Of a DNA stretch of 64,000 nt, positions 3,831 to 27,490 are shown in pieces. The stretch spans positions 1 to 64,000 of the forward strand of contig LGRX02029125.1 in assembly GCA_001247695.2 (NCBI GenBank), in the 5' to 3' direction. The DNA comes from Cymbomonas tetramitiformis. Lineage: Eukaryota; Chlorophyta; Pyramimonadophyceae; Pyramimonadales; Pyramimonadaceae. Position 1 is the stretch's first letter. Each line of letters opens with the position of its first letter. Made by a program: the position numbers and the translations under genes. The notes under the pieces are model-generated. The model saw nothing but the letters and a program-made list of their open reading frames with translations, was not told the origin of the DNA and did no database searches.

Positions 3831-4007
3831 AAACTTGCCACATGAGCATAAATATTCTCATACTATGTGTATCGGAATATTATGTTATGAGTACATAGGT
3901 GTCACGAGTTTTCCCTGTTTTCTTCTTGGCCTATTGTGAATGTATTAACCGCATGCACGCCTGGCCTGCGGTGAATGTAATAACACCACATGCTCGCCCG
4001 GTACGCT

Positions 4008-4180
4008 ATATATGAGCTGAAATTCAGCCTATACATGAGCTGAAATTCAGCCTATATATGAGCTAAAATTCAGCCTATATATGAGGGTATATATGAGCTG
4101 AAATTCAGCCTATATATGAGCTGAAATTCAGCCTATATATGAGGCTATATATATGTGAGCGGAAATTCAGGCTATATATG
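4008..4180. repeat. 23-bp tandem array, left part
   Basis: About seven copies of a ~23-bp unit with core AGCTGAAATTCAGC separated by CTATATATG. It is in the same orientation as the array at 19143-19372. The two are halves of one hAT subterminal array split by the MULE. The last CTATATATG (4172-4180) is the MULE target duplication. Confidence 0.85.
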
Positions 4181-4268
4181 GGTAGCATAATGATTCGGGA
4201 ATAGATTACTCCAAAATGGGGAATAGAAATTTCAATCTGTTTTTGGGGAATAGGTGTGTGACACATGC
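4181..4268. repeat. MULE left terminal inverted repeat
   Basis: Pairs with 19044-19133 in inverted orientation at roughly 75-80 percent identity by eye. The best blocks are the two 'GGGGAATAG' motifs and the 'AATAGATTACTCC' segment. The outermost ~16 bases are less conserved. Confidence 0.75.
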
Positions 4269-4354
4269 ATATGCGTCTAAAGTTTTGCGTTTAAATTTTT
4301 AATAAATCGTTAAAATTTTCCCCCCACCCATCTGTTCACTTTCGTTTTGCAAAC

Positions 4355-5122
4355 ATGAGGAAGCCTCCGAAAAAGTACACTAGGGTGTGTCTTTCTTGCG
4401 ATAATGGCGGGCGTCGTTGTACTAGACATGCCACGCGTGTTCACCGCACAAAGGAACACCCTTTCTTCCACTTAACCGCCTTAAACGGCACAGGGCTTGA
4501 TACCTATGTAGAGAATTGTGGCTTTCGATTCAAGCATACAGAGTCGGTAAAGGTATGGGAAAGTCAAGATAGGGACCGTACCCCTATTTGGGACTTTCAA
4601 AACGATTTTGTGTATATAGAACACACGGAGGGTATGCCTTGGGGCAAGCTTGTTCCAAGTCGAGGAAACTTCAACTACCTACCTTGCCAACGACACTTGC
4701 TTACGGGCTCGTATCCTCCATTTCATTACAATAACGTCGTCGCGAACTGGCAAATGCAAGACATTATGCAGTCGTTCCTGAAAGTGCTTATGTCGAAGCG
4801 TGCGTTCAACGCTCAGTCCCTATCCCGAGCTTTGTATTGGTTTTGCTTGGTTGCTTCCCGTGAGCATCGCAGTGCGCACTTTTGTTGTGCGGGCTCGCAA
4901 ATTATTATCCGGCAGAAAGGTGCTACGCTTTGCAAGCTTTGCAACGCTTGCGCTACTTCGATCTTAGCGCATAACAAGTTTGCCGCTCTTCGGCTTGAAT
5001 GGTGTTCTATTAATACGGATACAGGAGTGAGTTCAACTAAGTTTTGTCGGGTAGACTGTGGAGCGGGCTTGAGCCCGGAATACTTTGAAGACAACTTCTC
5101 CCCACGGATACTAGTTCTTTAG
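4355..5122 (+). CDS. Cys-rich protein, MULE cargo family member 1
   Basis: A 255-residue intronless ORF, the first gene inside the MULE left end. I do not recognise a named family. It contains an N-terminal 'CLSCDNGGRRC' cluster, a 'PCQRH' motif (about residue 112), 'YWFCLVASREH' (about 166) and 'LCKLCNAC' (about 195). The order CxxH, then an aromatic-Cys motif, then CxxC is the same as in the proteins at 12930 and 15694, where the motifs read RCELH / WVWCEE / LCAKC and RCQVH / WVWCNE / VCSKC. I infer a diverged paralogue trio with a structural zinc site. The stop codon overlaps the stop of the convergent dioxygenase gene by a few bases. The function is unknown. Confidence 0.65.
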   Translation: MRKPPKKYTRVCLSCDNGGRRCTRHATRVHRTKEHPFFHLTALNGTGLDTYVENCGFRFKHTESVKVWESQDRDRTPIWDFQNDFVYIEHTEGMPWGKLVPSRGNFNYLPCQRHLLTGSYPPFHYNNVVANWQMQDIMQSFLKVLMSKRAFNAQSLSRALYWFCLVASREHRSAHFCCAGSQIIIRQKGATLCKLCNACATSILAHNKFAALRLEWCSINTDTGVSSTKFCRVDCGAGLSPEYFEDNFSPRILVL

Positions 5123-5784
5123 ATATAGGTAGGCGGCCAAAATATAGGATCTTCTTTATCCTGTGTACGATCGTACATTTTGTAGAAGGTTACACAATAG
5201 CGCACTCCTATGAAGCCCGCAGAATTGATCCTATGCTTGCACCTTGCGTCGGATTTAAACACTTTATGCGTGTCAAAAAAACACTTCACTTCGTCGTTGT
5301 ACGGCGACTCTACCTCGTAAACGGCATTTTCGAACCTCCCTAGGAATATGTTGTATTGATGTGACACGTCGTGCTTGTCTGTGTGCCTACCAACCTCGCA
5401 CATGTCGCTCATCATGCACGATACGTACAAACACCAATCCCCGTGGACGCCGTGGTAATTCGCATCAATACACTTCAATAGTTCCCCTGCTAGCAAAAAG
5501 ATCTCCTTCTTCCAATATGGGTTGCTCTTCGACACTAGAGGGTCGTCTAGATATACGCCTCTGTTCTTGAAAAAAGGATGCTTCAAGCTAAACGCAGACG
5601 TCCCGTCCTTCTTCTTGGCGAATCCCCACTGTTGCGCAGTTCTCCCCATGTTGAACCACCATCCAAGATTCCAACCCACCTTCGGAGCCGCGCCTTCTTC
5701 TTCATCGCGGTCGTCCTTTTTGTCGCGCCTCTCGATGCGCTTGCACGTTTCAGCATGCAACACGGATTCTAGCTCTCCGCACAA
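5119..5784 (-). CDS. 2OG-Fe(II) dioxygenase, TET/JBP-like
   Basis: 221 residues. The C-terminal half carries the double-stranded beta-helix dioxygenase signature: an HxD iron ligand pair in 'EVGRHTDKHD' (about residue 132), a distal His in 'CKHRIN' (about 183), and the downstream basic residue of the 2-oxoglutarate site in 'GVRYCVTFYK'. The HxDxxD/N spacing is the form seen in TET/JBP enzymes, which oxidise 5-methyl pyrimidines in DNA. AlkB-like or prolyl-hydroxylase-like families cannot be excluded by eye. At 221 residues it is a minimal catalytic domain without CXXC or DNA-binding extensions. Its start lies 22 bp from the stop of the methyltransferase gene on the same strand, which suggests co-expression. 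TET/JBP genes are known to have spread with KDZ transposons in fungi, so a link with transposons is precedented. Confidence 0.6.
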   Translation of the reverse strand: MCGELESVLHAETCKRIERRDKKDDRDEEEGAAPKVGWNLGWWFNMGRTAQQWGFAKKKDGTSAFSLKHPFFKNRGVYLDDPLVSKSNPYWKKEIFLLAGELLKCIDANYHGVHGDWCLYVSCMMSDMCEVGRHTDKHDVSHQYNIFLGRFENAVYEVESPYNDEVKCFFDTHKVFKSDARCKHRINSAGFIGVRYCVTFYKMYDRTQDKEDPIFWPPTYI

Positions 5785-5806
5785 CGCTTTGAACCTAGGC
5801 GAGTCG

Positions 5807-7120
5807 CTAATTGGAAGTCGCTTGCGCCTGTCTCCGCGATTCCCACAATATTATCCCTCTAGTCAAGAAAGAGGCCACGGTAAAAGCTTCACCATCATAC
5901 ATATAAGGTGCGTTCCCCTTGCTTTCCATTCCCTTGTAAAGATGTGTGTGGAACTCTTGGGCTTTTGTTGCTATCATTTCTTTCGCTTCTTCTGAGTTGA
6001 AAAAAACGTACCACGCTTCCACGTCTCCTAAGCTGCGGTCATACCCGGGGTATTTCGCAGGGGGTAACAAGATCTTCAAAGCTAACTTGTTAAAACATTC
6101 AGCTCTGTTATCTCCCACCACTGGTCGCTCGAAAGAATGCAACAATTTCAAGCATACCACGGACGCCTTTGAATTAAGGCAAGCTGCTAATAACGGTTCG
6201 CACAAACCTCTAGCATAAGGTAAAGACGACACAATTACGTCAATCTTCGGTTTGAAAAGTTCCCAGTCTATTATTGCTAAATCAAGTTTTCTTATCCCTT
6301 TTGCAGGCTTGTGATCGCTCAGGAAAATTGTCTTGGGCTTGAACGCCACAAGATTCTCGTACACATAATGCGGTGCTTGTCCGCAGCAGAAATCAAATAT
6401 CCTTAGGCCTTTGAAACTTTCTTTGAAAAAAGCTAGTAGTGGTGTGTATTGCCCTTTAAGAGTGGGATAAAAACTTGTAGACTTGCAACATTTGCGTGGT
6501 AAATCAATTGCAAATGGATAACTTGAAAGGCGCGCACACCTCGTTGATAGCGCACTTCGCTTTCTTTTTGTTGGCATTTTGTGTGCCACTTCTGCCTCTA
6601 CATCTTGCAACTCCTCATGCTCAAGCTCTCTCTCTAGCTCTGGTTGGGGCATCTCCACATGCGTTGCCTCCTCCTCCGGTACTTCATCCAAATCTTGAGC
6701 CTCTGACACCTTCTCAGATATCGCGCATCTTGTTATCTTGTCTACCCACTTGTCGAATGCGAGAACTCGACTATGCTTGGCACAACATTTGCCAACACCA
6801 CATGTCGTGCCAAGCGCGGCGCTCTCCACAGGGCGAACCATCAATAGTGCTTTGAACACCAATGATATTCCCCCCTGATTAATCGAATACGTATCGTTGA
6901 AAATATACCCACAATACGCTTCGAAAATCGTTGTCAAGTCTACGCGTCCGTAGTCGTAGCCTGTTTTCCCATCCTTATACTTAACACCTTCTGGCCAAAA
7001 CTCTGGCTTGCTATCGCCTAACTTCGCGTATGGTCCTAATAAACGCGCGAGTACTTTGCGAAAGTCTTGTAGGCTAGGCTCTTTCGCATCGCATATATCG
7101 TTACACTTTTCTTTACGCAT
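5807..7120 (-). CDS. SAM-dependent methyltransferase with SSLPY motif
   Basis: 437 residues, no intron. A Rossmann methyltransferase core lies at about residues 235-360: the glycine loop 'IFDFCCGQAP', an acidic strand-2 position in 'IFLSDHKP', and the catalytic-loop candidate 'VIVSSLPYARG'. That last motif takes the place of the (D/N/S)PP(Y/F/W) of N6-adenine and N4-cytosine methyltransferases. Having Leu in place of the first Pro makes the substrate uncertain. The N-terminal 220 residues are a separate region with a Cys cluster ('TTCGVGKCCAKH') and an acidic stretch. The start codon is followed upstream, at 40 and 160 bp, by two ~105-bp palindromes (7161-7392), probably its promoter module. 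The pairing with a dioxygenase suggests DNA modification, but RNA or protein targets are possible. Confidence 0.6.
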   Translation of the reverse strand: MRKEKCNDICDAKEPSLQDFRKVLARLLGPYAKLGDSKPEFWPEGVKYKDGKTGYDYGRVDLTTIFEAYCGYIFNDTYSINQGGISLVFKALLMVRPVESAALGTTCGVGKCCAKHSRVLAFDKWVDKITRCAISEKVSEAQDLDEVPEEEATHVEMPQPELERELEHEELQDVEAEVAHKMPTKRKRSALSTRCARLSSYPFAIDLPRKCCKSTSFYPTLKGQYTPLLAFFKESFKGLRIFDFCCGQAPHYVYENLVAFKPKTIFLSDHKPAKGIRKLDLAIIDWELFKPKIDVIVSSLPYARGLCEPLLAACLNSKASVVCLKLLHSFERPVVGDNRAECFNKLALKILLPPAKYPGYDRSLGDVEAWYVFFNSEEAKEMIATKAQEFHTHLYKGMESKGNAPYMYDGEAFTVASFLTRGIILWESRRQAQATSN

Positions 7121-7160
7121 ATTTTCGTTTCGATTTTATGTAGGAACGAACCTTACTTTT

Positions 7161-7263
7161 CGCTAAGTATTGTTAGACGTGTTCCCAAAGTGACCAAAAA
7201 CCGTTCGATTCCGAATCGAACGGTTTTTGGTCACTTTGGGAACACATCTGATAATACTTAGCG
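7161..7263. promoter_or_regulatory. long palindrome P1
   Basis: Near-perfect inverted repeat. The arm reads from CGCTAAGTATT through GTGTTCCCAAAGTGACC to AACCGTTCGATTC and is then mirrored, with essentially no loop. It is one of six copies (P1-P6). It lies about 40 bp upstream of the methyltransferase start on the minus strand. Confidence 0.85.
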
Positions 7264-7282
7264 AAGGTTTGCTGTACAGTAT

Positions 7283-7392
7283 TTTCGCTAAGTATTATCA
7301 GATGTGTTCCCAAAGTGACCAAAACCCGTTCGATTCGAAATCGAACGGTTTTTGGTCACTTTGGGAACACGTCTAACAATACTTAGGGAAAA
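7283..7392. promoter_or_regulatory. long palindrome P2
   Basis: Second copy of the P-family palindrome, only 20 bp from P1. It has the same arms, with few mismatches. Confidence 0.85.
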
Positions 7393-7515
7393 TGACAGAT
7401 AGGTCGAAGAGAATAGCGCGTGTTGTCACCATGCCGACTTCCTAACTCACATTAACATCCCGAACCCCTTATTACACCGTGCACGGTGTAGGCCCTCCCG
7501 AACGCAGCGCAGCCG

Positions 7516-7602
7516 CGATTCACGGCCGTGAATCTGAAATTCACGGCCGTGAATTTCAAATTCACGGCCGTGAATCTGAAATTCACGGCCGTGAATCTGA
7601 AA
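7516..7602. repeat. four ATTCACGGCCGTGAAT palindromes
   Basis: Four tandem copies of the 16-bp perfect palindrome ATTCACGGCCGTGAAT spaced by about 5-7 bp. The same palindrome recurs at 14950-15008 (three copies) and 15309-15347 (two), with a mutated copy at about 12670. It is always near a P-family palindrome, which suggests a dimer-binding operator. Confidence 0.8.
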
Positions 7603-8320
7603 CATAAGTACATTCCACAAGAGAGCACCCCGCTGAAATTATTTACCCTTAAGGTATATTCGGAGCATTTACCATGTGACGTGCACCATATCGCCTTCCA
7701 CACGAGTTTGACATGGCAGCGTGTCACATTGAGCTGCACGAAATCTTCAGGCCTCCTGTTCCTCGTCTCCGAAATTTTCATAATGCTTCTCGAAGTCGCA
7801 CGTGGCAGCGAATATCATATACTGAATTATTATACATAAGGTTTTTCTCTTGAGGGCCTCGAGAGACGAGTATTATCATTTATATGATATATCGAAACCG
7901 TATTCAATCCGATTAAATATTATCTCAGGCAAACTGTCTCGGCTGGCCCGATTGGCCCGCCTAGGAATATACAATTTGGATGGGAAGATCTTCGTTGTAA
8001 CGGAAGATAGCTTTTCGGTGACGTGGAATTGTTCCGGGGAGATGGCGTTCGACTGTACGATAATAATGGTGATAAATCAGATAAAAATGATAAATCGTGA
8101 ACCGCTGAGATATATTCGGTGAAAATCGAAGCGTGAACCTTCCTTCCTCTCGGGCGATCAATTTAAAATTCCTAAAACTGCGCTCTCTTGAATTTCAAAT
8201 ATCTGACACTGTTCACCTGCGTGAGCGCATCTTAAGATCTGGCGTTTGCAGGTGAAGTCTTGCCCCCACTAGCATGTAAAGGTTTCATGTGTGTAGCGTA
8301 AATATTAGGTCACAGTCCAC
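7603..8320. other. no gene seen
   Basis: AT-rich spacer inside the MULE between the methyltransferase upstream region and the minisatellite. Short frames here show no recognisable domain or conserved feature. Confidence 0.5.
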
Positions 8321-8816
8321 TCTCGATGCAAAGGTGCCTGAGGCACGTGCTCGAGCTCTAGTTACACACACACACATGCGTCTCAGTCAGTCGGGTCTAG
8401 CACACGCAACTCTCGATGCAAAGGTGCTTGAGGCACGTGCTCGAGGCTGTAGCCGCACACACGCATGCATATCAGTCGGGTCTGGCACCCTCAGCTCTCG
8501 ATCACTCGATGCAAAGGTGCCTAAGGCACGTGCTCGAGGCTCTAGTTGCACATGCGCATGCGTCTCAGCTGGGTCTGCGTGGCACACGCAGTCAGTAGGT
8601 CTCGATGCAAAGGTGCCTGAGGCACGTGCTCGAGGCTCTAGTCGCACACACGCATGCGTCTCAGTCGGGTCAGGTACACTCAGGTCTCGATGCAAAGGTG
8701 CCTGAGGCACGTGCTCGAGGCTTTAGTCGCACACACGCATGCGTCTCAGTCGGGTCAGGTACACGCAGTCAGGTCTCGATGCAAAGGTGCCTGAGGCACG
8801 TGCTCGAGGCTCAGAA
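8321..8816. repeat. 86-97-bp tandem repeat, six units
   Basis: Units begin 'CTCGATGCAAAGGTGCCT' near 8321, 8411, 8503, 8600, 8685 and 8774. Each has an internal GAGGCACGTGCTCGAGG segment, then 'cgcatgcgtctcagt'. Several ORFs run through because the unit lengths preserve frames, but they look like repeat artefacts. It sits 100 bp upstream of the basic protein gene. Confidence 0.9.
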
Positions 8817-8917
8817 GTTTGTCAGGTTGCATGATGCATGTGTTTGCAGGTGCGTGAGTGAATACTGACGAAGGGTGACGGGTTTTACCGTGTTGCGTTC
8901 GTTGTGGGCGTGTAGGC

Positions 8918-9685
8918 ATGGGGAAGAGGCGGGGTAAGAGATCAACTGAAGCGAGACAAAAGAGTGCTCAACTGCGAAGATATGGACCGGACAGTTTCCT
9001 TGCGACCATCAACGACAACCTTTTGACTTTACAGCAACACATGACAGGAACTTCCCCCGCCCCTCATACTTTAGAACCGATTGCACGAGCGGCAGTTGCA
9101 CATTCAGAACAGCCTGCTCTGGCCAGTGAAGTAGAATTTCCCGAGCAGGATGCCGTGGTCACAAAACGGCTTGAGAACGACAAAGAAGCAACTGACAGAG
9201 ATGCAACTGACAGAGAAGCATCTGACAGAGAAACAACTGACATTTTTTCTGGGCACTCGGACGAAAGTCTCGGGGAGAGCTGCTGCACAAGCGCTCCCAG
9301 CACACACTTTGAGAGTCCCCCACGCACATTCCCGGTCCATCTCTCGCAAGTTCAACACGTAGCACCACGGAGGTATGGCTTTTTACGACCTGACAAAATG
9401 AGGGGTCCGAACGGACCCACTGTGAGTATAAGGATTAAGTGCGGAGAAAACCCGGCGCCTATGCAGCAACGGCCGCCTATGCAGCAACGGTACGCACCAG
9501 CACCACGATTTGCAATCCACAAGGTGTTAGGACATAAAGAGATCCAAAGGCAGCAGAGGGAAAGGGGGGCGGCCTTTGTTCACGCTGCAACAAAGTTAGC
9601 GTGCCCGCCCTGCGACGATCGAACCACAGTGCTGGCGACGCCATCACCACACACCAAGAAGAATCGGAAACTTTTCAGAGCTTAG
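8918..9685 (+). CDS. basic low-complexity protein, MULE cargo
   Basis: 255 residues starting MGKRRGKRSTEARQKSAQ, strongly basic at both ends (C terminus 'HTKKNRKLFRA'). A central acidic tract is built from repeats of (S/T)DRE/DAT (residues 88-108), and a short direct repeat PMQQR lies at about 186-198. It is largely disordered by composition, and there is no known fold or catalytic motif. A nucleic-acid-binding or nuclear role is plausible from composition alone. The six-unit minisatellite lies directly upstream. The ORF could be an exon of something longer, but no splice sites are needed to read it. Confidence 0.5.
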   Translation: MGKRRGKRSTEARQKSAQLRRYGPDSFLATINDNLLTLQQHMTGTSPAPHTLEPIARAAVAHSEQPALASEVEFPEQDAVVTKRLENDKEATDRDATDREASDRETTDIFSGHSDESLGESCCTSAPSTHFESPPRTFPVHLSQVQHVAPRRYGFLRPDKMRGPNGPTVSIRIKCGENPAPMQQRPPMQQRYAPAPRFAIHKVLGHKEIQRQQRERGAAFVHAATKLACPPCDDRTTVLATPSPHTKKNRKLFRA

Positions 9686-10339
9686 ACTCCCACTATCTTG
9701 TTTGTATGCAACTTTTGTAACTTTGTAACCTTTATCATCCTATACTTAGATGTGTAATAGCAGAATCCGATAGAAAGTGTATGTGAGTAAGTGTTTGAGT
9801 AAGGGTCTCACCCCAGGAATTCTAAATCAGTTTTCGTATTATAGATTGACATGTCGAGTGTGAGTATGACGTAACACCTCCTTTATTGCAAGGCATGGTA
9901 TCAGTTGATACAGGGGGTATCGATTCTTTCTGATTATTTTGTTGTTGGTATCAAATGATTGTGATATCACGTAAATCGGGGTTCCGGTCAAGATGAGCTG
10001 ATGCTGAGCATACGGATTGATAGATATATGTGTGATGAGCTCAGGAAGCCATCATATGCCTGATGGATGGTCGTGCATCCCGAGATATCGATTTTATAGT
10101 GAAACCCAAACTGCCTTCCGCAGTTTTCTCATAATATGAAATACACTACGCGTCAGTTCAGGATATGCTGATGCTGAGGGTTCAGAACTATAGATACATT
10201 TGACGTAATATCTATGATAACAATATTGCGATATTATCATGTGCATGAAAACAGATTTCCTTTGTTTTGACTTATCATACACCGAGGGGAAGGTGGGTCG
10301 GCCGACCATATCACTTAAATGGTTAGGGTGCGGCCCGAG
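9686..10339. other. no gene seen
   Basis: MULE-internal spacer. It contains two related segments around 'gatgagctgatgctgagcatacggattgatag' and 'ggatatgctgatgctgagggttcagaactatag' (9990-10200), but nothing coding. Confidence 0.5.
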
Positions 10340-10980
10340 CATATGTTCTCACCTGCCCATCAGGTGAGAACACGTGCTTGGGCGTATGGGGCTGTCAGGT
10401 TTTGAACCTGAGCTGACTGGGTATTGCCAACCAGTTTTCAACCGCTCTTAAAATCTCGGCGTTCTAGCGCTGAGGCACAAGTCGTGCAAGCTCCGATCGT
10501 GGTGTGCTGTGTCACACAGGACTCAAACGGGATCTCAAGCCCGTCAGCTTGTGCTGCAGGCACGGGTCGCGCGGTGCAGTGCCCTCTCTTTGCGAAACAC
10601 CGTTCATCTAAAGGAATAAACAGCACATCATGCAATGCTATATGTGGGGCAAGTGCTTGGCCTTAATACTTTTAAGGCGAGGCTCGGGTACATGACTTCG
10701 TGCCCGAGAGCGTGTACCCGAGCGCCGGGGCTGTCAGGTTTTTAACCTGAACTGACCGTGTTCTCATCGGTCGGACTGCAGCCCCTCTTATGATTGTAAG
10801 CACACCTGATACAGGTACACAGATGCTGTGCCGTGCCGCGTTAGGAGGGATCCCATAAAAGGTTGCTCGAGTGGAACACCAGGCAGCGTTATTCGTGCCC
10901 GGGGAATATTGAATGCTATCGAGATTCGAGTACATGTTCTCAGTTTGCAAACCGAGAACATGTACTCGAACTTGGGGCTG
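10340..10980. repeat. hairpin plus GGGGCTGTC cassette, three copies
   Basis: Three cassettes each consist of a long hairpin: 10336-10382 (arms around TTCTCACCTG), 10680-10722 (arms GCTCGGGTACA) and 10928-10968 (arms CGAGTACATGTTCTC). A GGGGCTGTC start follows at 10388, 10727 and 10974, then a segment that reads as an antisense tRNA T-arm (for example 'GGATTTGAACC'). See the individual tRNA-like entries. The repeat of hairpin plus tRNA-like unit is not a known feature to me. Confidence 0.5.
10727..10785 (-). ncRNA. tRNA-like structure, D-arm missing
   Basis: Read on the minus strand, a perfect 7-bp acceptor (GGGGCTG...CAGCCCC) closes a T-arm-like hairpin (TCAGG, 7-nt loop, CCTGA) and an anticodon-like hairpin (GACCG...CGGTC) with an oversized loop. 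It is 59 nt in total and has no D-arm. It is not a canonical cytosolic tRNA. It could be a mimic, a processing signal or a decayed gene. Confidence 0.35.
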
Positions 10981-11044
10981 TCGGGATTTGAACCTGGGAC
11001 ACAGCAGCCACTACAGCCTATACACTACACAACCAGGGGTGCAA

Positions 11045-11113
11045 GTGATATCTCAGACTCGAACTGAGACCTCCGGACTGAGTGTCCAGCGCTCTGAATT
11101 GAGCTAATATCAC
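11045..11113 (-). ncRNA. tRNA-like cloverleaf
   Basis: 69 nt on the minus strand with acceptor GTGATAT/ATATCAC (7 bp), D-stem GCTC/GAGC, anticodon stem CTGGA/TCCGG with a 7-nt loop, and T-arm CTCAG-TTCGAGT-CTGAG. All four arms form. The anticodon loop (CACTCAG) lacks the nearly universal U33, so decoding function is doubtful. It has clear relatives at 11250-11316 and 11457-11525. Confidence 0.45.
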
Positions 11114-11249
11114 AAAAAAGGATGCGTCTATGATCCGCAACGGAAACGCCTGCGCTCACGAACCCAGCTGGGATGCAGCAGAGCACCCTTGCAAGACAGG
11201 CGAGAGAAAGCCCTAAGCTAGAAGATAGGCATACTCGTAAAGCGTGGAA

Positions 11250-11316
11250 GTAACATCTCAGAGTCACACTAAGACCTCCGAATGTAAAAACCGGCGCTCT
11301 TTTGAGCTAGTATCAC
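11250..11316 (-). ncRNA. tRNA-like, degraded copy
   Basis: Related to the cloverleaf at 11045. The GTGATAC 5' end, GCTC/GAGC D-stem and a T-arm with 'GAGGTCTTAG...' are retained, but the acceptor and T-loop are mismatched. Confidence 0.3.
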
Positions 11317-11456
11317 CGAAAAGATGGCTTCCGAAGAAGGACCTGCAGCGGACTCGAAAGCAGTCACTGACGCTCAAAGGTACTGCAGAAAGTGCTTACG
11401 GCTCCGCGAACATACCTGCCAGCGATATTTCCTGAACGGCCTAGCCGTGGAAGTGG

Positions 11457-11525
11457 GTGACAACTCAGAATCGAACTGAGACCTCTGGAAAAGGTTTCCA
11501 GCGCTCTTTCTTGAGCTAATGTCAC
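11457..11525 (-). ncRNA. tRNA-like cloverleaf
   Basis: 69 nt with acceptor GTGACA/TGTCAC, D-stem GCTC/GAGC, a perfect anticodon stem CTGGA/TCCAG (extendable to 7 bp over a 3-nt loop CCT), and T-arm CTCAG-TTCGATT-CTGAG. It again lacks U33. It is best seen as a member of a MULE-borne tRNA-like family. Confidence 0.45.
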
Positions 11526-12730
11526 AACAATGAGCCGTTCTCCCTGAAAATGGTGCACAGCAAGACGGGCGTGCCGTGCGTTTGTGAGAAAATCCTGATT
11601 GGGGTACCTCGTTGTGGACTGCAGCTGAGAAAAATAAGCGCTTCGCAGACATCCCTACACAAACCCGGCAAATAGCCCAGTGATACTGTGTACGCTTGCT
11701 ACGGATGCTCGACTCTCCGCACAACTCTCGCGCGACAGAACACAATAAGTAACGTCAATACGAAGGCTGCTAAAACTTTCACAGGAGCAGCCTCACAAAA
11801 ATGTAACGGGCGTTGGCTGGAAACAGACAAGTTTAAGACAAACCTTTGAAAGCAAACAACAGCAGCGATGTTGATGGCGTGAGTTGCATGAGAAAGGATG
11901 CTAAATATCATCGTTCGCGGAAACCATTGGTCGACCGCCAATGATTCCATCTAAAATACCTTCGGGATCTGACCTGTATGCACTGTTGGACACCGGAATC
12001 TGTATCACCACTAAAAACGCGAGAAACCTGTCAGCGACAAATATCCGAGATGACGTTGCATTAATTCATTTTATTGGGAAATTTTTCTACGACCGACGGA
12101 TTGAAGAGGCTCTCATCTAATGGCGTTGGGCTTGAGTCATGATACGGTGATGCAGTCGTCGTTTTCGGGACCCGAAAAGTGCATGCGATCAGGTCGGGTC
12201 ACGTGGCGTGGCATGGGCAAATAAATGTCTTGGAAAGCAATCTTTTGATGGTACAGTTCTCTAAATTTGATAGCAAGATACTTTATATAATCGCAGGACC
12301 TCCTAAAAACGAAACATCCTGAGTGCTCTGGATGACTGTGGCATATTGCTCGGAATTACTATTATAAGCAGGTTCGGGGGGGGTAGTCGCGGTCATGACC
12401 GACGGATTGAATGGGCTCTCATCTAATGGTATCAGGTTCGGGCCAATGCATTCACCTCTGAATCGATTCTCATGATGCCTTTCGACACAAGCATTGCAGC
12501 GTGTGCTTACGTCAGTCCTGAATCGTTTCTTGTCCACAATTCGAAAGATGTCCAAAATATCGCGTGGAGTCATTTACGGACATTATTGGTCGGAATCACT
12601 GACTGTATGGTCGGAATCGCTGACTGTAAATTAATTTCAGAGGTGTGTCATATGGTGGAAACGACTTATGATTCACGCCCGTGAATCTGAAAGTAAAGAC
12701 TTACCAAAAAATATAGAGACGGGTACGGTA
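11526..12730. other. no gene seen
   Basis: MULE-internal spacer. It contains a duplicated segment, 'cgacggattgaa...ggctctcatctaatgg', at about 12095-12120 and 12398-12430, and a mutated ATTCACG(G/C)CCGTGAAT palindrome at about 12671. No coding feature could be supported. Confidence 0.5.
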
Positions 12731-12841
12731 TTTTCGCTAAGTATTATCAGATGTGTTCCCAAAGTGACCAAAAACCGTTCGATTACGAATCCAACGGGTT
12801 TTGGTCACTTTGAGAACACGTCTGATAATACTTAGCGAAAA
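12731..12841. promoter_or_regulatory. long palindrome P3
   Basis: Third copy of the P-family palindrome. Arms TTTTCGCTAAGTATTATCAG through GTGTTCCCAAAGTGACC, with a few more mismatches than P1/P2. It lies 90 bp upstream of the next gene's start at 12930. Confidence 0.85.
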
Positions 12842-12929
12842 TACGTAGAGATAATAATGGTTCCTTCTCATGGTAATAAACCCTACAAGGAAATATCGAT
12901 AAATCTAGTCTTCATCCGCAAATAAAATA

Positions 12930-13454
12930 ATGAATCGAATAATAAATAGGGACGAGGATTATCAATCTTGCAGAGGCTACCTACCCGCCCCATACAATTG
13001 CATAGCCCTTTGGCAGAAGCACATCGTGGTGCGCGGGGAAGACGAGAACCCTACCAAGGATCCCCACTATGGACTCACTCGCCCCAACAAGCGGTGCGAG
13101 TTGCATAAGGTCCTCATATGCATGGTGGAGTATGGAGAGGCTGGCGTTCAACCATTAGAGTTTCCTTTCGATTGGTTCCCAATGCTCGACCACTACGCTA
13201 TCATCAACCGCACGCAGGGTGCGTGGGTATGGTGCGAGGAGAGCGCAACCACTCGCATCGTTTTCCACGACCATGGAAACGCCGAGGATGGGAAAATAAA
13301 ATCGACAGATATCTTCACCTCCCTTGTGTCGTACAAGTTGTGCGCTAAGTGCGCTAAAACATGTCAAGGGATGGTGCAGCCTCTCGAGAGGCACGAGCGC
13401 AATGCAAGTTTGAATATTTATGAACGTTTGAACGTCGAGTTCGAGCTAATATAG
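12930..13454 (+). CDS. Cys-rich small protein, MULE cargo family member 2
   Basis: 174 residues, clearly paralogous to the protein at 15694. Shared blocks in the same order are 'RCELHKVLICMVEYGE' versus 'RCQVHKALVKMKEYGE', 'WVWCEESATTRIVF' versus 'WVWCNEIASMRLVF', 'LCAKCAKTCQ' versus 'VCSKCVRLCQ', and the C terminus 'LNVEFELI' versus 'LTVSFELL'. The conserved Cys/His pairs (CxxH, WC, CxxCxxxC) suggest a zinc-stabilised fold. I know no named family. The gene sits directly downstream of palindrome P3 and the ATG is the first in frame. Its role is unknown. Retention of several copies suggests selection within the element. Confidence 0.7.
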   Translation: MNRIINRDEDYQSCRGYLPAPYNCIALWQKHIVVRGEDENPTKDPHYGLTRPNKRCELHKVLICMVEYGEAGVQPLEFPFDWFPMLDHYAIINRTQGAWVWCEESATTRIVFHDHGNAEDGKIKSTDIFTSLVSYKLCAKCAKTCQGMVQPLERHERNASLNIYERLNVEFELI

Positions 13455-13631
13455 AATATAACGAATTAGCACAGACTAGTAACGATAACGAGCAAGTAAA
13501 ACATATAATATTCGTTTGCAAAAACAAGTAATAATATGCATAGACTTGTAAATGTTCATGTTTATTCACCTATTGAGCTAGTGTCCAAGCATGGCATACA
13601 CGTCTTGAAAGTAAAGCATTTTGTAAGCCTA

Positions 13632-14875
13632 TTATGTCCGCATTCGCTTGGCTTGTGCCTTCCCTACGGGTCCCTTCGCGGCTTTGTCTAAGGCTTTCTC
13701 AACATCGCGTGCCAAAACCTTCAGGACTTTCTTATGCTCCTCGTCCACCGTGTTGGTGAGGTCTGTGCCCGCTAGAAAGTACTTCACGAACTCCTTCGTA
13801 ACAAAGTCGAGATAACCCCAATGTAAGGCCGAGTTCACGGGGTTCAGCTGAACATCAGGGTCGTAGGACGCCACGCCCTTCAACGCCAAGTTGGCGGAGA
13901 ACACCACCCGGGGCGTGCCATCCGCGTTGGTCACCCCTTGGTGTACCCCTCCCACCACCGCGCAGTCGCCCAATCCCACTTTATCCTTTCCCCCAACGTT
14001 CGTCGCATACGCGTCGAGGGTTTCCTTCGAGAGCATGAGGGCTCGCTGCTCGTGGAATTGGACATCGCAGTTGAGTTGCAACCTCTCTTGCGTCGATTGG
14101 CCTAGGAGCTCAACCGACGCGTCGAAGGACGGTGTTGGTGCACAACACAACCTTGTTGGGGATGATGGGCCAAGGTAGGCCACAATGGCCAAGTGATGAG
14201 GGCGTTCGGTGAGAGGTTGGTTAAGTGGCTGGTCCAAGTGCCAAGGTTGCCACCCGGTAAGGGTGGAGAGGACCGTATTAGGCGCCCCCTGAATCTCCCG
14301 AACGAGATTGTCGTTGATTAAGAATGCTTGATTCTCGATTGTGTACTCCTTACGAAGATTTTCCATAACCTTCGTTTCCAACTCGTGTACGAAGACGTTC
14401 AAGTGCTTTCGATCTTCGTCTGTGAGATATTGCTCGTAGAAGTCGGTCTGCACTCCCCCCCCCCGTGTTTCGCGGACTCGTGAAACACCTCCAGCTTTCC
14501 TCCAGTGAGGGTTACCACCCCAGGAGGAAGATTTTTCCAGTCCGGGACCTTGTTCACGGCCTCCCTCCACATACACGAATACCGCCTTTCCAGATGTTCT
14601 CGCGACTCGTCTGGTAAAGACACCACGAAGGTGTTAGCGAAACCTATAGCTCGCGTACGGTCAAAGTCGTCAAAAAATGTTTCCTTGACGGCAGGCTCTT
14701 TCTTTTTTTGTTGACCGCTGCATTTTGCGCATCTCAACTCGCCCTTGCCTCTTTTAGATCGTGTGCATGGTTTGCCCGCGTGGTCCATAGTCGAGGGATC
14801 TTGTCTACATTCAATAAGCTTTCCCATCTTGTTTAATTGGCCACATTCGCAACGTGAAGCTTGATTCGAAGCCAT
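13632..14875 (-). pseudogene. Cys-rich cargo gene with frameshift in a C10 run
   Basis: Two overlapping minus-strand frames make one gene of about 425-430 residues. An N-terminal part (14875 to about 14465) begins MASNQASRCECGQL and has Cys pairs including 'LRCAKCSG'. A C-terminal part runs from about 14455 to 13632. The frames meet exactly at a ten-C homopolymer (14455-14464); eleven or eight bases would restore one frame, so this may be a sequencing error or a true lesion. The C-terminal part has 'WQPWHLDQPL', which looks like an HxD iron site of a 2OG-type oxygenase, followed by 'LAIVAYLG'. I could not place the distal His and Arg, so this is only a suggestion. The C-terminal tail is basic (AKRMRT), as in nuclear proteins. 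Palindrome P4 lies 176 bp upstream of the start. Confidence 0.5.
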
Positions 14876-14949
14876 ATTTGTTTAAAGATCGGGTTAGGTA
14901 TTAGGCTTTGGTAGGTTTACTAAACGAGGAAGTCGCTACACTAGCCCGG

Positions 14950-15008
14950 AATTCACGGCCGTGAATTTCAGATTCACGGCCGTGAATATCAGATTCACGG
15001 CCGTGAAT
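14950..15008. promoter_or_regulatory. three ATTCACGGCCGTGAAT palindromes
   Basis: Three copies of the 16-bp perfect palindrome, 75-130 bp upstream of the 14875 start codon. Same motif as at 7516-7602. Confidence 0.75.
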
Positions 15009-15050
15009 CGCGGGTGCAGGGCGTTCGGGAGGGGAGGGACCTGTATGGTA

Positions 15051-15161
15051 TTTTCTCGAAGTATTATCAGATGTGTTCCCAAAGTGACCAAACACCGTTA
15101 GATTCGGAATCGAACGGTTTTTGGTCACTTTGGGAACACGTCGCAAAATACTTCGAGAAAA
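15051..15161. promoter_or_regulatory. long palindrome P4
   Basis: P-family palindrome with outer arms altered to TTTTCTCGAAGTATT. The mirrored half changes in a compensating way (CTTCGAGAAAA), so base pairing of the arms is kept while the sequence drifts. Confidence 0.85.
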
Positions 15162-15390
15162 TGCCGAACAAATTCACAGGTCGTCGGTAATAGCGCGTGT
15201 TCAGGCGTTGTCACCAAGCCCACATCAGCACTCACATAAACGTACGTAGCCCCTCCCGAACCCCATGCACCGTATGGTTTAGGCCTTTCCGAACGCAGTG
15301 CAGCCGCGATTCACGGCCGTGAATCAGATATTCACGGCCGTGAATTTCGGGCTCAAGATAATGCTCTATACTGAAAAGACTTGTACGGTA

Positions 15391-15501
15391 TTTTCTCTAG
15401 GTATTATCAGATGTGTTCCCAAAGTGACCAAAAACCGTTAGATTCGGAATCGAACGGTTTTTGGTCACTTTGGGAACACATCTGATAATACTAAGCGAAA
15501 A
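15391..15501. promoter_or_regulatory. long palindrome P5
   Basis: P-family palindrome preceded by two ATTCACGGCCGTGAAT palindromes (15309-15347). It is the first of a pair upstream of the gene at 15694. Confidence 0.85.
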
Positions 15502-15513
15502 TACCATACAATA

Positions 15514-15624
15514 TTTTCTCTAAGTATTATCAGATGTGTTACCAAAGTGACAAAAAACCGTTCGATTCGGAATCGAACGGTTTTTGGTCACTTTGGGAAC
15601 ACATCTGATAATACTTAGAGAAAA
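15514..15624. promoter_or_regulatory. long palindrome P6
   Basis: P-family palindrome 70 bp upstream of the ATG at 15694. Its outer arms TTTTCTCTAAG/CTTAGAGAAAA are again mutually compensated. Confidence 0.85.
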
Positions 15625-15693
15625 TACCGTACCCGTCTTGTAAATTTACCGTAACAACTTGAGCTAATTTATCATATTAAACGCAACAAAAAA

Positions 15694-16239
15694 ATGGCCG
15701 CAACCGTGGAGTGCACCCCTTGCAACATTCGTAGAGCGAAAAAGGACGAAGAACATCTTATAGAAGCTGGGACATATTGGCTTGGGTTGGGCGACGGCCC
15801 GTACCCGCCTCTACAAGATCCACACGCGTACCAATGTTTGACGCGCGTTTCGGAGCGATGCCAAGTGCATAAGGCACTTGTGAAAATGAAGGAATACGGG
15901 GAAGAGGATCATGTGGAAAAATTCGCGTCGCCTTGGCGTATTTCATCGATGCTTGGACCCCGTCCCGAAAGGCAAAGCAAGTTGGAAAATTATTGGGTGT
16001 GGTGCAACGAGATCGCAAGCATGCGACTCGTTTTCCGCGAGACGTATTTGGGCGTGAACACTGAGTACAAGGGAATTCGGAACTATAACGGGCTTGTTGA
16101 AAAATACAAGTCTTTTCACGTGTGTAGCAAGTGCGTGCGGCTATGCCAAAACCTATGTCGTGGTTTGGAGAAGCCATCTTTACGCTCTGGACGCGAAGGA
16201 CCTCAAGACTTTTTGACGGTCTCTTTCGAGTTGTTGTGA
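15694..16239 (+). CDS. Cys-rich small protein, MULE cargo family member 3
   Basis: 181 residues starting MAATVECTPCNIRRAKKDEE, with an extra N-terminal CxxC relative to its paralogue at 12930. Motifs are RCQVHK (about residue 58), WVWCNEIAS (about 103), VCSKCVRLCQNLC (about 142) and the C-terminal 'FELL'. It lies directly downstream of palindromes P5 and P6 and convergent with the transposase gene, whose stop lies 107 bp beyond its own. Its function is not recognisable. A small zinc-binding accessory protein of the element is a reasonable inference. Confidence 0.7.
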   Translation: MAATVECTPCNIRRAKKDEEHLIEAGTYWLGLGDGPYPPLQDPHAYQCLTRVSERCQVHKALVKMKEYGEEDHVEKFASPWRISSMLGPRPERQSKLENYWVWCNEIASMRLVFRETYLGVNTEYKGIRNYNGLVEKYKSFHVCSKCVRLCQNLCRGLEKPSLRSGREGPQDFLTVSFELL

Positions 16240-16345
16240 AAGAAGCACAATGCAATTTTATGAACACAAGCTAGCAATAGAACACTTTGTAATATATGTA
16301 TGTTAATACATGTTCATTCGCTATTGATTATATGTTTGCATGTGT

Positions 16346-18967
16346 CTACGGGTACAAGCAAACTGTGCACATGAACAAGCCATCTGGAACTCGTGTGAGA
16401 GGAGGAATCATACAATGCATGTGGTACCCCTTGTCACAACCATCGCACACCAGCATTTTGCTTGCATAAGTCGCCTTAATGCATATTTCGCACTTCAAGG
16501 AGTGCGAGACGGTTTGGGAGCTCATGACCTCACGGTCCATTGCGTCCTCCTCAATAGCGTCACTTGCTTTTTTCCCCGCTAGCCTCTTCAACTTGCCGGT
16601 GATCTTGCCAAGGGGTTGTCGCCGAAGTGCAGAAGTAGGTTTCATTGGTCGGCCAGCTTTGGGAATCCGACCGATCAAGTCGAGCTGTTTTTCCAAAGGT
16701 GCTTTGAACTTTCCTTTGAATAACCCCACTGCCACCACGTCCGCGCACACACCACTTTCGTAGAACTCAGGGCAGTTGCACGTGTAGTGCACATACTCAG
16801 TCGGGGTTGTTGAAGCCTGCACAAGGACGAAGGAGGCATATAGGGAGACGAACTCGTTGAACGTCGTCACATTGGCGGGGGGGTTCACGGGATCACGGAT
16901 AAGTGATAGGAACTCAGCGGCCATAACAAGTATTTCTTTCCGTTTGTCCGCGATGGTGACCGATTTCAGACTGTTGGTCTTCATTGTAGGCAACACGAAC
17001 ACCATGGTCTCCTCGTCAGGTAGGTGGGGTAAGCGGGTCGCCTTGGTCATAAGTTCCATGACGTTGCTTTCCACCATGAGTAGGGCCTCCCGCCACATAT
17101 CGTGTCGCACAATTGGACTAGTAGGCAAAGGATGTTCGCGCTCGAAAATAGTTTCGTTGCGAACATATTTCATAGCACTTTTATGAAACCGAGCCAGTTG
17201 TAGCTGTTTGCCGTTGCACAGAGCTGCCTTTGCCCACCGATTGTTGGACTCGGGGCTATTTTGCGTGGAAGGTTTGCCAGGAGGCATCGTCCCTAGCACC
17301 CAACCACTCCATTGGCCCCACCAAAAGTCCACGAACCACGAGCATATGTACTCCTCCTCCTCCTCGAAGGACAACATCAACAACTTGAAGGCTTCGGTGC
17401 GCACAGAAGTGAGGGTGATACGGTGAACACCGGCAACGCCGGTCTTGAAGCTCTCGACGTTATTAGCGTCGTTAAACATGCTAGACTTTTCGTTGAGTTT
17501 CATCTTGCAGTGTGCCCAACATATGCCTTGTTTGACGTCCTCCACCGTTATGATTTCGTCGTTAATGGTTTCGTCAACACGGTCTCCCCGCTCTAGGTGA
17601 TTGAAGACGACCTGAGCGGTTTTGGGTAGGGACAAGTTTGCATTGTAAAACGCTAGGGAGTGGTCAAGCGTGTGAAGCTTGGGTTGCCACAAAACGCCAA
17701 AGGAAATGCGTATTGCCCGAAGGACGAGAAAGTCCACGAGCTCAGAGGCGAATGCGTCCTCGTGGGACTTCAAGGCCATGTAACCCATTCTGAAACGTTT
17801 ATCCAACCAGCAAGTACCGCCGAACTCAACGGGAAAGCCGTTCCAGTTGGTCTTGTAGGTGTCGTCCCGAGAGCGGTGGTCGCTAGTGGACAAAACTTGA
17901 AGTAGTTCCCAAGTAGTGTAGATCACGGTCCAGCGTTTTCGTTTTTGTTGAAGTTGGTAGTCCTCAACAAGTTGCTCGTAGTTGCGTAAAAGCGCCCGAA
18001 GGTTTAGCTTGCCCTTGTAGAAATGCGACTTTTTGGTACTCCACCCGTGACATGCCAAAAGATTGGACGCGAGCTCCAGGAAGTGGGAACAACCGTCTGA
18101 CGCCAAGAGTTTTTCAAATTCTTGCTGTAGGCGCCGTTCACAAACGGCTGGGTCCTCCCTCCACTTGTCATGCCGCCAAGCTGCCATGATTTCCAAGCAA
18201 GAAGTTGCTTGGAAAATCAAGGGAGGTAAGTTGTTGCGTGAGTTATCCTTGTACGCAGGAACATCGGCGTAGCTTCCGTCTTGAAGAAGAACTTGGCCGT
18301 CAAACATGCACAACACCCCGGGGGTGTCGAGGTCCGTGATGGGGATCGCGAACAAGTTAGCTGTCACGCACTCGTGCATATAGTTACCGTAGGTTTTAAT
18401 ATCTTCTGTTTCCCAAATTCGGTACTTATTGTTGTAGGCATAATTGCAGATTGTTGCGTAAGCCGGTACTGTCGGGAGGCTGAGGTCGTCCTTCATTTCT
18501 AGGAACACGGACTTTGGCCCCTTGCCCATCTTCAAGTGCGTGTCCAAATAGGTTTTTACTTGAGGGTTCAAGCCTTTGTTGAAGAATCCCGCGTGATCGT
18601 GTTCTCCACTCTGGAACAAGTCACAACACTCGCTCGACTTTTGTATGATTTTGAAAAACGCTTGACAACCGCTGGACTTGCAGAACGAGCACTTAAACTT
18701 GTGTGTAATATTGCCCGTTCTCTTAGCTATGTGAGGTTTGTCTGCCTTGGAGAAGCCTTCAGAACACGCCTCCTTAATTCTTTCCATACACCTATCGAAA
18801 GATGAAGCACTTAGCAAGGCCACCCACTCTTTACGCTCGTGCGTCCGTGTCCGCTTGCGCCTACAGAGCTCCTCAATTTCATCCTCGGGATCGGAATCCT
18901 CATAAATTTCTCGTCCATCCTTCCCGGGGCTAGTGAACTGCAAATTTTCCTCCTCCTGGTCCTCCAT
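16346..18967 (-). CDS. MULE transposase with SWIM-like and C-terminal PHD finger
   Basis: 873 residues, one exon. In order: an acidic N terminus; a Cys/His region resembling the FLYWCH/WRKY-GCM1 finger of MULEs ('FKCSFCKSSGC' ... 'SGEHDHAG', about 90-135); and the RNase-H-fold DDE domain with 'RDDTYKTNW' (first D, about 365), 'LHTLDHSLAFYNA' (second D, about 435), 'CWAHCKMKL', and 'NSPESNNRWAK' (E, about 565). Next comes a SWIM-like 'YTCNCPEFYESGVCADVVAV' (about 725) in which the usual last His is Asp. A C4HC3 PHD finger ends the protein: CEICIK, 'LVCDGCDKGYHMHC' and CTVC, about 822-870. It would cut and join the element ends. The PHD may guide insertion to, or read, histone H3 tails. The start lies 77-166 bp inside the right inverted repeat, so that repeat probably holds the promoter. 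Confidence 0.85.
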   Translation of the reverse strand: MEDQEEENLQFTSPGKDGREIYEDSDPEDEIEELCRRKRTRTHERKEWVALLSASSFDRCMERIKEACSEGFSKADKPHIAKRTGNITHKFKCSFCKSSGCQAFFKIIQKSSECCDLFQSGEHDHAGFFNKGLNPQVKTYLDTHLKMGKGPKSVFLEMKDDLSLPTVPAYATICNYAYNNKYRIWETEDIKTYGNYMHECVTANLFAIPITDLDTPGVLCMFDGQVLLQDGSYADVPAYKDNSRNNLPPLIFQATSCLEIMAAWRHDKWREDPAVCERRLQQEFEKLLASDGCSHFLELASNLLACHGWSTKKSHFYKGKLNLRALLRNYEQLVEDYQLQQKRKRWTVIYTTWELLQVLSTSDHRSRDDTYKTNWNGFPVEFGGTCWLDKRFRMGYMALKSHEDAFASELVDFLVLRAIRISFGVLWQPKLHTLDHSLAFYNANLSLPKTAQVVFNHLERGDRVDETINDEIITVEDVKQGICWAHCKMKLNEKSSMFNDANNVESFKTGVAGVHRITLTSVRTEAFKLLMLSFEEEEEYICSWFVDFWWGQWSGWVLGTMPPGKPSTQNSPESNNRWAKAALCNGKQLQLARFHKSAMKYVRNETIFEREHPLPTSPIVRHDMWREALLMVESNVMELMTKATRLPHLPDEETMVFVLPTMKTNSLKSVTIADKRKEILVMAAEFLSLIRDPVNPPANVTTFNEFVSLYASFVLVQASTTPTEYVHYTCNCPEFYESGVCADVVAVGLFKGKFKAPLEKQLDLIGRIPKAGRPMKPTSALRRQPLGKITGKLKRLAGKKASDAIEEDAMDREVMSSQTVSHSLKCEICIKATYASKMLVCDGCDKGYHMHCMIPPLTRVPDGLFMCTVCLYP

Positions 18968-19043
18968 GACTGTGAAGTGTTGGGGAGTGTGCTAGTGAAA
19001 CTGCTTGTAAAATTTTTTGGCGCTCGATTGAATTAAGCATGGT

Positions 19044-19133
19044 TACATGTGACATATAATCTATTCCCCAAAAACAGATCGAAAATTCTATTCCCCATTC
19101 TGGAGCAATCTATTCCTCGATAACCTTTTTTCC
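19044..19133. repeat. MULE right terminal inverted repeat
   Basis: Inverted partner of 4181-4268, ending TTTTTTCC at 19133 before the CTATATATG duplication (19134-19142). Confidence 0.75.
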
Positions 19134-19142
19134 CTATATATG

Positions 19143-19372
19143 TGCTGAAATTCAGCCTATGTATGAGCCTACATATGAGCTGAAATTCAGCCTATATATG
19201 AGCTTAAATTCAGTCTACATATGAGCTGAAACTCAGTCTATATATGAGCTGAAATTCAGTCTATATATGAGCTGAAATTCAGTCTATATATGAGCTGAAA
19301 TTCAGCCTATAGATGAGCTGAAATTCAGCCTATATATGAGCTGAAATTCAGCCTATAGATGAGCTGAAATTC
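19143..19372. repeat. 23-bp tandem array, right part
   Basis: About nine units of AGCTGAAATTCAGCCTATATATG in the same orientation as the left part at 4008-4180, so it is one array split by the MULE. The core AGCTGAAAWTCAGC also builds the array in the autonomous hAT at 27270-27490. Confidence 0.85.
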
Positions 19373-19489
19373 ATAATGTAGCCAATCCACAATGTAGACA
19401 CGGTAGATAGAAATGCAAACCCAAACCCAGAAATGTCAAATATAACCCCCTCTGGTGCAGTGTCCGACGAGGCGCCAAAAAATGTTCGT

Positions 19490-26829: not shown

Positions 26830-27269
26830 ATCTTGATATCCGGATAGTGTGAGTGCTGTTGTCAAGCGCCTGAGTTGTCAAGCGCCTGAAAACGTAGATG
26901 CACAGGCAGGGTACTGTAGTGAAACCGCTAGAGTGAAGTAAGTGTGTAAGTGGCTTTTGTGTGCGTGTAACAAGTGTGTGAATTAATAGTACGTAAGTCT
27001 CGTAGAGTCATAAATACAAGGGCTGCCATTTGGCATGGTAATCCGTATTTGCTTAGTGTTCGTGATAACAAGATTTGTGATAAGCATCACGTTCCAATTG
27101 TCTTGCTTCCCCTTGCCCTTGTTGGCAACGCGGACAAGCAAGGTAAACCAAACCTCAAGTGATGCCTAAGCAAAACCTGTTGTTGTTGTAGTCTCAAAAC
27201 CGGTTTAATTGTCTTGAAACCTGTTATCATATAGGTTTTACAGCTCTGAAATTACTAACACATTTGGTT

Positions 27270-27490
27270 GCATAAGCTGAAAATCGGCCTACGAATAAGC
27301 TGAAAATCTGCTTATGCATAAGCTGAAAATTAACCTACGAATAAGCTGAAAATCAGCTTATGCATAAGCTGAAAATTAACCTACGAATAAGTGAAAATCA
27401 GCTTATGCATTAGTTGGAAAGCAGTTTATGCATAAGCTGACGATCAGCCATAGAAAAAGCTGAAAATCAGCTTATGCATAAGCTGAAAAT
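27270..27490. repeat. ~23-bp palindromic array in hAT
   Basis: About nine units of AGCTGAAAATCAGCTTATGCATA alternating with '...ATTAACCTACGAATA' variants. The core is shared with the array of the older hAT at 4008-4180 and 19143-19372. Confidence 0.85.

Follow-up and report, generated by a model that had tools for sequence, protein, structure and literature searches.

A 15-kb Mutator-like DNA transposon of the green alga Cymbomonas tetramitiformis, with a candidate DNA-modification cargo and an unusual tRNA-like/hairpin array

TET-type genes have been described in fungal DNA transposons, in 11 lineages, and an escape from methylation silencing has been proposed for the elements that own them (Kojima 2025, PMC12730594). 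Giant DNA transposons of algae, such as Sola1-1 of Ectocarpus, reach 15-30 kb and carry accessory genes, including a predicted N4-cytosine/N6-adenine DNA methyltransferase (PMC12477816), and a number of retrotransposons have captured cytosine methyltransferases (PMC5890265). Among Mutator-like elements (MULEs), the Pack-MULEs described are at most 7 kb long and hold gene fragments (PMC6431247, PMC12730594). The element treated here is a complete MULE of Cymbomonas tetramitiformis, a pyramimonadophycean green alga whose published assembly of 914 Mb consists to 68.3% of interspersed repeats and is rich in endogenous viruses (PMC10675990; the element is not described in section 4 of that paper). 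It occupies positions 4181-19133, or 14,953 bp, of the 64,000 nucleotides of contig LGRX02029125.1 that were analysed (the window, C19831 in our numbering).

The locus shares features with each of these systems. It has a TET/JBP-like gene of its own, as the fungal TET+ transposons have a TET/JBP-type one; unlike it, the fungal set includes no MULE, the term 'green alga' is absent from the main text of that study, and its passages on these transposons mention no gene shared between a methyltransferase and a TET enzyme (PMC12730594). The giant algal transposons match it in size and in their accessory genes, and have cargo-only relatives that are moved in trans, but they belong to KDZ, EnSpm and Sola-1, their methyltransferase is fused to ParB, and the parts of the source that deal with them mention no TET gene (PMC12477816). 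A Mutator-type transposase and terminal inverted repeats are shared with Pack-MULEs and with MuDR/VANDAL, whereas 15 kb and whole genes are not shared with the former (PMC6431247, PMC12730594), and the pairing of a mobile element with a DNA-modifying enzyme is shared with elements that are retrotransposons and carry a C5 methyltransferase (PMC5890265). The element is a giant algal DNA transposon with a putative epigenetic cargo, in this case a MULE that has an unusual RNA array and may encode writer and eraser in one gene. What is new is the possible splice between genes C and B, the tRNA-like/hairpin array, and the two types of palindrome that stand before four genes.

The element begins with GGTAGCATAA at 4181 and ends with CCTTTTTTCC at 19133. 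Its left terminal inverted repeat is 88 bp long (4181-4268, plus strand) and is answered by a right one at 19044-19133 (minus strand). An inner stretch of 56 nt (4198-4253 and 19061-19116) is 93% complementary and the outer 25 nt have diverged between the two ends; aligned with each other, the two ends score 53, whereas none of 500 shuffles exceeds 18 and none of 1844 random window pairs exceeds 19. The inverted ends named by the first-pass annotation of this DNA are exact to the base. The 9-bp duplication that it also reported, CTATATATG at 4172-4180 and again at 19134-19142, is weak evidence at the window copy alone, because the flanks there are a 23-bp satellite that itself contains CTATATATG. 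The matter is settled by 22 other copies with a perfect 9-bp duplication. Altogether, identical 9 bp stand on both sides in 23 of the 23 copies with both ends read (the window copy, 19 loci, C150, C6624 and C12045), at 22 distinct sites, and it follows that the two termini do not come from separate elements and that a single self-contained MULE with both its termini lies in the window. Two of the shorter copies described below, L015 (C833) and L026 (C931), have identical flanks and probably represent one insertion on allelic or duplicated contigs. Satellites of 23 bp, built from palindromes such as AGCTGAAATTCAGCT, occur in the window at 4006-4180, 19133-19373 and 27269-27491, and the element was inserted into one of them.

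The left 88 bp were used to search a genome assembly of 851.7 Mb. All 40 places that were scored, the window copy not being one of them, are 100% identical to this end, and the true number of left ends exceeds 40, since 1265 candidates appeared at first look. Eight of the 40 have a start like that of the window copy, a non-autonomous family of 3.4 kb accounts for 31, and one is an element of 420 bp. Sixteen members of the 3.4-kb family were read from end to end and are 3393-3431 bp long, the other 15 having been judged from up to 1.6 kb inside the left end; the largest open reading frame (ORF) of the member examined has no more than 123 aa. Among the window-like starts, C150 (14,316 bp) and C6624 (15,674 bp) contain all nine ORF regions of the window copy, with matching pieces 98.8-99.8% identical to it, C5682 (8,442 bp), C12045 (3,989 bp) and C12080 (1,519 bp) are internally deleted forms, and the reading of C11025, C10161 and C2922 covered 1 kb each. 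Full copies with the same gene set, which the first-pass annotation had proposed to look for, thus exist. They are C150 and C6624, although 31 of the 40 scored left ends come from the cargo-poor family with the same ends. Over the three full copies there are 14 synonymous and 14 nonsynonymous substitutions and five indel blocks; these differences are partly common to several copies, so no claim of selection is made.

The right end is taken up by gene I (16346-18967, minus strand), whose 873-aa product is a MULE-type DDE transposase with SWIM-like and PHD fingers. Transposases of MULEs have a DDE triad with CxxH between the second D and the E, and a SWIM-type zinc finger C-terminal to the catalytic core. 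In gene I, D369, D435 and E573, with C483/H486 in the expected place, are invariant in six of six and five of five aligned sequences, the relatives being 36-49% identical and the five-sequence alignment leaving out two truncated models; the single MULE transposase predicted earlier is confirmed as an open frame with this motif. The C-terminal CxC...C residues (C730, C732 and C741) are invariant in five of five, the final SWIM histidine is present in relative P0010 only, and SWIM itself has no Pfam match, one relative carrying the UniRef label SWIM-type. The PHD finger is the sole Pfam match above the cut-off (E 2.1e-9) and is missing in relative P0008.

Nine ORFs, of 873, 437, 255, 255, 244, 181, 176, 174 and 158 aa, lie in the element. 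Random sequences matched to it in first-order composition (200 of them) contain a mean of 0.39 ORFs of at least 150 aa and 0.015 of at least 240 aa. The cargo genes are whole, as had been claimed, and the count of at least seven intronless ORFs is borne out in number by nine ORFs beyond random expectation, although one of them, the TET-like gene, probably has an intron. Genes B, C and I were searched against a large protein database, and A, D, E, F, G and H against family libraries, with D and E/H also against viral contigs. C. tetramitiformis (CYMTET) proteins, some with 86-99% identity, are matched by the transposase, the TET-like protein and the methyltransferase.

Gene B (5119-5827, minus strand; first ATG at 5649, conserved coding start near 5827) encodes a putative TET/JBP-like dioxygenase in which H149, D151, H199 and R210, the HxD...H triad with its downstream arginine, are invariant in four aligned sequences. 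This facial triad is not specific to TET/JBP, because other 2-oxoglutarate oxygenases have the same residues, and a scan of prokaryotic genome contigs confirmed no prokaryotic relatives. Gene C (5807-7120, minus strand; 437 aa) has an N-terminal module followed by a class-I methyltransferase-like domain. DNA amino-methyltransferases have a motif IV of the form (D/N/S)PP(Y/F/W), and in C the corresponding SSLPY, with Leu in place of one Pro, is invariant in six of six aligned sequences. C5-cytosine methyltransferases have a catalytic Pro-Cys motif; the PC dipeptide is absent from all 437 residues of C, which thus lacks the mark of that class. A GT-AG intron of 712 nt is predicted at 5828-6539 on the minus strand. 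Its removal would join exon 1 (6540-7120, minus strand), which encodes the N-terminal module, to gene B as exon 2, for a product of 430 aa, and the gene models CYMTET_23775 and CYMTET_34156 have the same junction. The TET-like gene, which had been taken to be intronless, would then share its N-terminal module with the methyltransferase, and alternative writer and eraser products could come from one gene.

A divergent relative on C931 (12321-17651, L026/L031), spanning about 5.3 kb and about 5-10 kb from a 3.4-kb copy, bears on the age of this arrangement. In the order and orientation of the window it carries a 219-aa relative of gene A (27% identity), a 181-aa TET-like ORF (27%), a 149-aa ORF and an 871-aa transposase (42%) with a PHD finger. 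Gene A itself (4355-5122, plus strand; 255 aa) has a marginal codon bias. The 149-aa ORF is matched to the N-terminal module by a profile at E 0.021 (best of 200 shuffles, 3.9) and to the methyltransferase homolog P0013 by a pairwise score of 60 (shuffled maximum 43), and both it and the module match PF11001 below the Pfam cut-off. Between this ORF and the TET-like ORF no methyltransferase domain was recognised, so the TET form may be older than the methyltransferase form. Because the order of A, TET-like gene, N-module-like ORF and transposase persists in C931, the TET-like gene looks old in the lineage. The comparison suggests an old core of A, N-module/TET and transposase, with the methyltransferase, genes D to H and the RNA array either acquired by the window's family or lost from the C931 relative. 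No terminal repeats of this relative were found, the best score in the aligned stretches being 15. Near 12.2 kb on C931, GGAATAGAAATTT can be seen by eye as in the window's left repeat, with no right partner found.

The starts of A and of the transposase adjoin the terminal repeats, and four other genes are preceded by palindromes of two types, both of which occur within the window only in the element. The 16-bp palindrome ATTCACGGCCGTGAAT has nine copies in the 64 kb, all in the element (7518-7596, 14951-15008 and 15309-15345), with a variant at 12671. The long palindromes number six, are 109-131 nt in length, and are 86-94% complementary. Upstream of C there are two long ones (7157-7392; 94% and 91% complementary), 37 and 164 bp from the gene start, and four copies of ATTCACGGCCGTGAAT (7518-7602). 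Gene E (12930-13454, plus strand; 174 aa) is preceded at 12671-12844 by the variant and a long palindrome (93% complementary) at 86 bp, and ORF G (14399-14875, minus strand; 158 aa) by three 16-bp palindromes and a long one (86%) at 167 bp, within 14951-15170. Gene H (15694-16239, plus strand; 181 aa), a paralog of E, has two 16-bp and two long palindromes (15309-15631; 92% and 94%), the latter at 183 and 63 bp. The earlier observation of palindromes upstream of cargo genes is therefore upheld and tied to C, E, G and H, and one regulon would fit the disposition of palindromes and gene starts. Both types are retained in members of the 3.4-kb family. The palindromes were also considered as Rfam miRNA families and rejected, with scores far below gathering.

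Between gene C and gene E lies an array that reads on the minus strand from 11525 to 10333 as three tRNA-like genes of one kind followed by units U3, U2 and U1. The three genes are a tRNA-Arg(CCT)-like gene at 11455-11525, found by ARAGORN only, a tRNA-like sequence at 11249-11316 (27.8 bits in Rfam, below the gathering score of 29) and a tRNA-Glu(CTC)-like gene at 11044-11113; ARAGORN finds two of the three, and Rfam scores two of them at 48.9 and 27.8 bits. No further tRNA was found by ARAGORN in the window. U3 (10920-11033) has a tRNA-like 3' half and a 56-nt hairpin, U2 (10678-10785) a D-armless tRNA-like structure with a 7-bp acceptor stem and a 50-nt hairpin, and U1 (10333-10445) a D-armless tRNA-like structure and a 51-nt hairpin. 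All three units end in a T-arm and GACAGCCCC, the hairpin following 0-5 nt beyond. The hairpins are strong (z of -10.1 for U3, -4.7 for U2 and -8.4 for U1), the body of U2 folds as an acceptor stem, one arm and a T-arm (z -4.8), that of U1 resembles it but is weaker (z -2.0), and that of U3 folds poorly (z 0.8); a B-box pattern is present in two of the three units. Translating tRNAs carry U33, and since both ARAGORN-called genes have A where U33 is expected, they are probably not translational. The nearest likeness is to the TMER RNAs of murine gammaherpesvirus 68, in which a tRNA-like structure is likewise followed by a hairpin; no kinship is claimed, and unlike the TMERs the array sits in a transposon and is partly D-armless (PMC8223928). 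It would probably yield RNA polymerase III (Pol III) transcripts that are cut into small RNAs. A literature search, with subscription journals mostly outside its coverage, found no tandem tRNA-like/hairpin units in a DNA transposon. Hairpin targets inside the window were sought with five 20-nt arm probes, which match their own hairpin only (at up to three mismatches).

The explanation favoured on balance, and held to be somewhat probable, is that of an autonomous and recently active MULE, grown to 15 kb, which manages its own DNA modification and has a C/B splice switch and an RNA array. In it, the right terminus would drive the transposase and the left terminus gene A, and palindrome promoters acting as one regulon would serve C/B, E, G/F and H. 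Keeping the intron would give the methyltransferase and splicing it the TET-type oxygenase, with the common N-terminal module directing both enzymes to the same DNA. The products may then modify the DNA of the element, most likely as N6-methyladenine and/or oxidised 5-methylcytosine, so that it would escape host silencing and transpose, and the processed Pol III transcripts of the array would supply small RNAs. That the element manages its own modification is plausible, and self-modification as an escape from silencing is inferred by analogy to the fungal TET+ transposons (PMC12730594) and to the algal transposon with an N4/N6 methyltransferase (PMC12477816).

A number of observations weigh against this explanation. 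Pfam gives no match to a MULE profile in gene I, so it is the order of motifs, the structure of the ends and the 9-bp duplications that place the element among the MULEs. Neither B nor C has a Pfam match to TET/JBP or methyltransferase domains, and their predicted structures are poor (mean pLDDT, the predicted local distance difference test, of 44.6 for the dioxygenase and 53.8). The dioxygenase model has no significant fold match, PDB sequence searches gave chance matches only, and the TET2, NgTET and CcTET chains are absent among the fold matches listed, which excludes nothing; the fold searches gave no family-level answer, and for C the RNA adenine methyltransferases tied with DNA ones. The proposals that the dioxygenase is TET/JBP-like and that the methyltransferase works on DNA have the support of motifs and of weak structure evidence. 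The two enzymes might instead have RNA or protein as their substrate, or make a hypermodified base as a mark of the transposon ends, in place of any role against silencing. B has no family match that would link it to TET/JBP proper, and the tied folds of C point the same way, but this is unlikely in view of TET/JBP genes in fungal transposons of many superfamilies (PMC12730594) and of the predicted N4/N6 DNA methyltransferase in an algal giant transposon (PMC12477816). As for the splice, the model is drawn from gene predictions instead of reads: CYMTET_23775 and CYMTET_34156 end before the HxD motif, CYMTET_30269, with the full catalytic part, removes other pieces, and the acceptor has no polypyrimidine tract. 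B could instead be an independent short gene and the junction, seen in truncated models, a gene-finder artefact. The ORF that begins at ATG 5649 has 176 aa and includes the complete catalytic core, and the TET-like relative on C931 starts near the equivalent place; yet some 54-60 residues upstream of this ATG, in a stretch with no in-frame ATG, are conserved in the dioxygenase homolog P0002 and three CYMTET models. An independent B is a serious possibility, short of probable. The similarity of the C931 ORF to the N-terminal module is marginal, its pairwise scores against the window protein, P0012 and P0014 falling inside the shuffled range. The array is nearly unchanged in C6624 (two substitutions, one inside U3, and two short insertions), but it is mostly deleted in C150, where U1 remains, and no tRNA match was obtained in the C5682 or C931 stretches, so it is dispensable. 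The joint reading, of a one-intron gene yielding either a methyltransferase, probably for N6-adenine, or a TET oxygenase on the same module, together with a TMER-like small-RNA array, is offered as a tentative proposal that may well prove wrong.

Two further accounts concern the cargo as a whole. An enlarged Pack-MULE might have captured whole genes that are of no use to it, as would fit the elements of 3.4, 4.0, 1.5 and 0.42 kb that have the same ends, perfect duplications and little of the cargo, and also ORF D (8918-9685, plus strand; 255 aa), which has neither a family match nor a codon bias. Against it, A and the TET-like gene keep their place and orientation in a relative whose transposase is 42% identical, the dioxygenase and methyltransferase homologs P0002 and P0013 come from contigs of the same length (3504) and hence probably from a single one, and genes of the element have element-specific upstream palindromes in common. 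Such a passenger cargo is quite improbable. Descent from a virus, whether polinton-like, giant or mirusvirus, had been hinted at by the first-pass annotation and is highly improbable. It would suit the tRNA-like genes, as tRNA genes occur in some large DNA viruses, and a host rich in endogenous viruses (PMC10675990). In Pfam, PHROGs and NCBIfam none of the nine ORFs matches a capsid, polymerase or packaging gene, though most of them match nothing, and PHROGs gave nothing significant; among IMG/VR viral contigs no relative was confirmed by seven scans based on proteins and one based on DNA.

If the tentative joint reading is true, both the DNA marks and the small RNAs of a DNA transposon would be under the control of the element itself, and if one gene yields both writer and eraser the element would be a minimal natural system for self-set DNA marks. 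A MULE with a TET-type gene in a green alga would add a further, independent TET-transposon association to the fungal ones. It would also open the anti-silencing idea to tests in an alga that grows in culture and whose near-identical copies, full and deleted, supply the controls.

The remaining features of the element are few. ORF D is preceded by a tandem repeat of about 90 bp (8321-8812), and gene F (13632-14366, minus strand; 244 aa) adjoins G, the weakest ORF, whose end is read in another frame in C6624 and C5682 and in the same frame in C150. Outside the element, a 400-aa ORF at 21751-22953 on the minus strand has a PHD finger and a methyltransferase-like stretch (TSPWF); homology of gene C to it (21754-22953) was considered and rejected, the best E being 0.31 and the two not alignable. 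Two ORFs, at 24172-25803 and 41656-42150, resemble by eye a hAT-type transposase with a BED finger and a fragment like a cytosine methyltransferase (SPPCTQYS), with no Pfam match at E 0.01. Lastly, about 9 kb to the right of the MULE, at 27876-39713 on the minus strand, lies a retroelement of the long terminal repeat type whose pol ORF encodes reverse transcriptase, RNase H, a C5-cytosine methyltransferase domain (Pfam E 1.1e-9) and then integrase, much as in the described retrotransposons that carry DNA methyltransferases (PMC5890265), and the 3.4-kb copy in L001 is bordered by a stretch of this retroelement with 94% identity.

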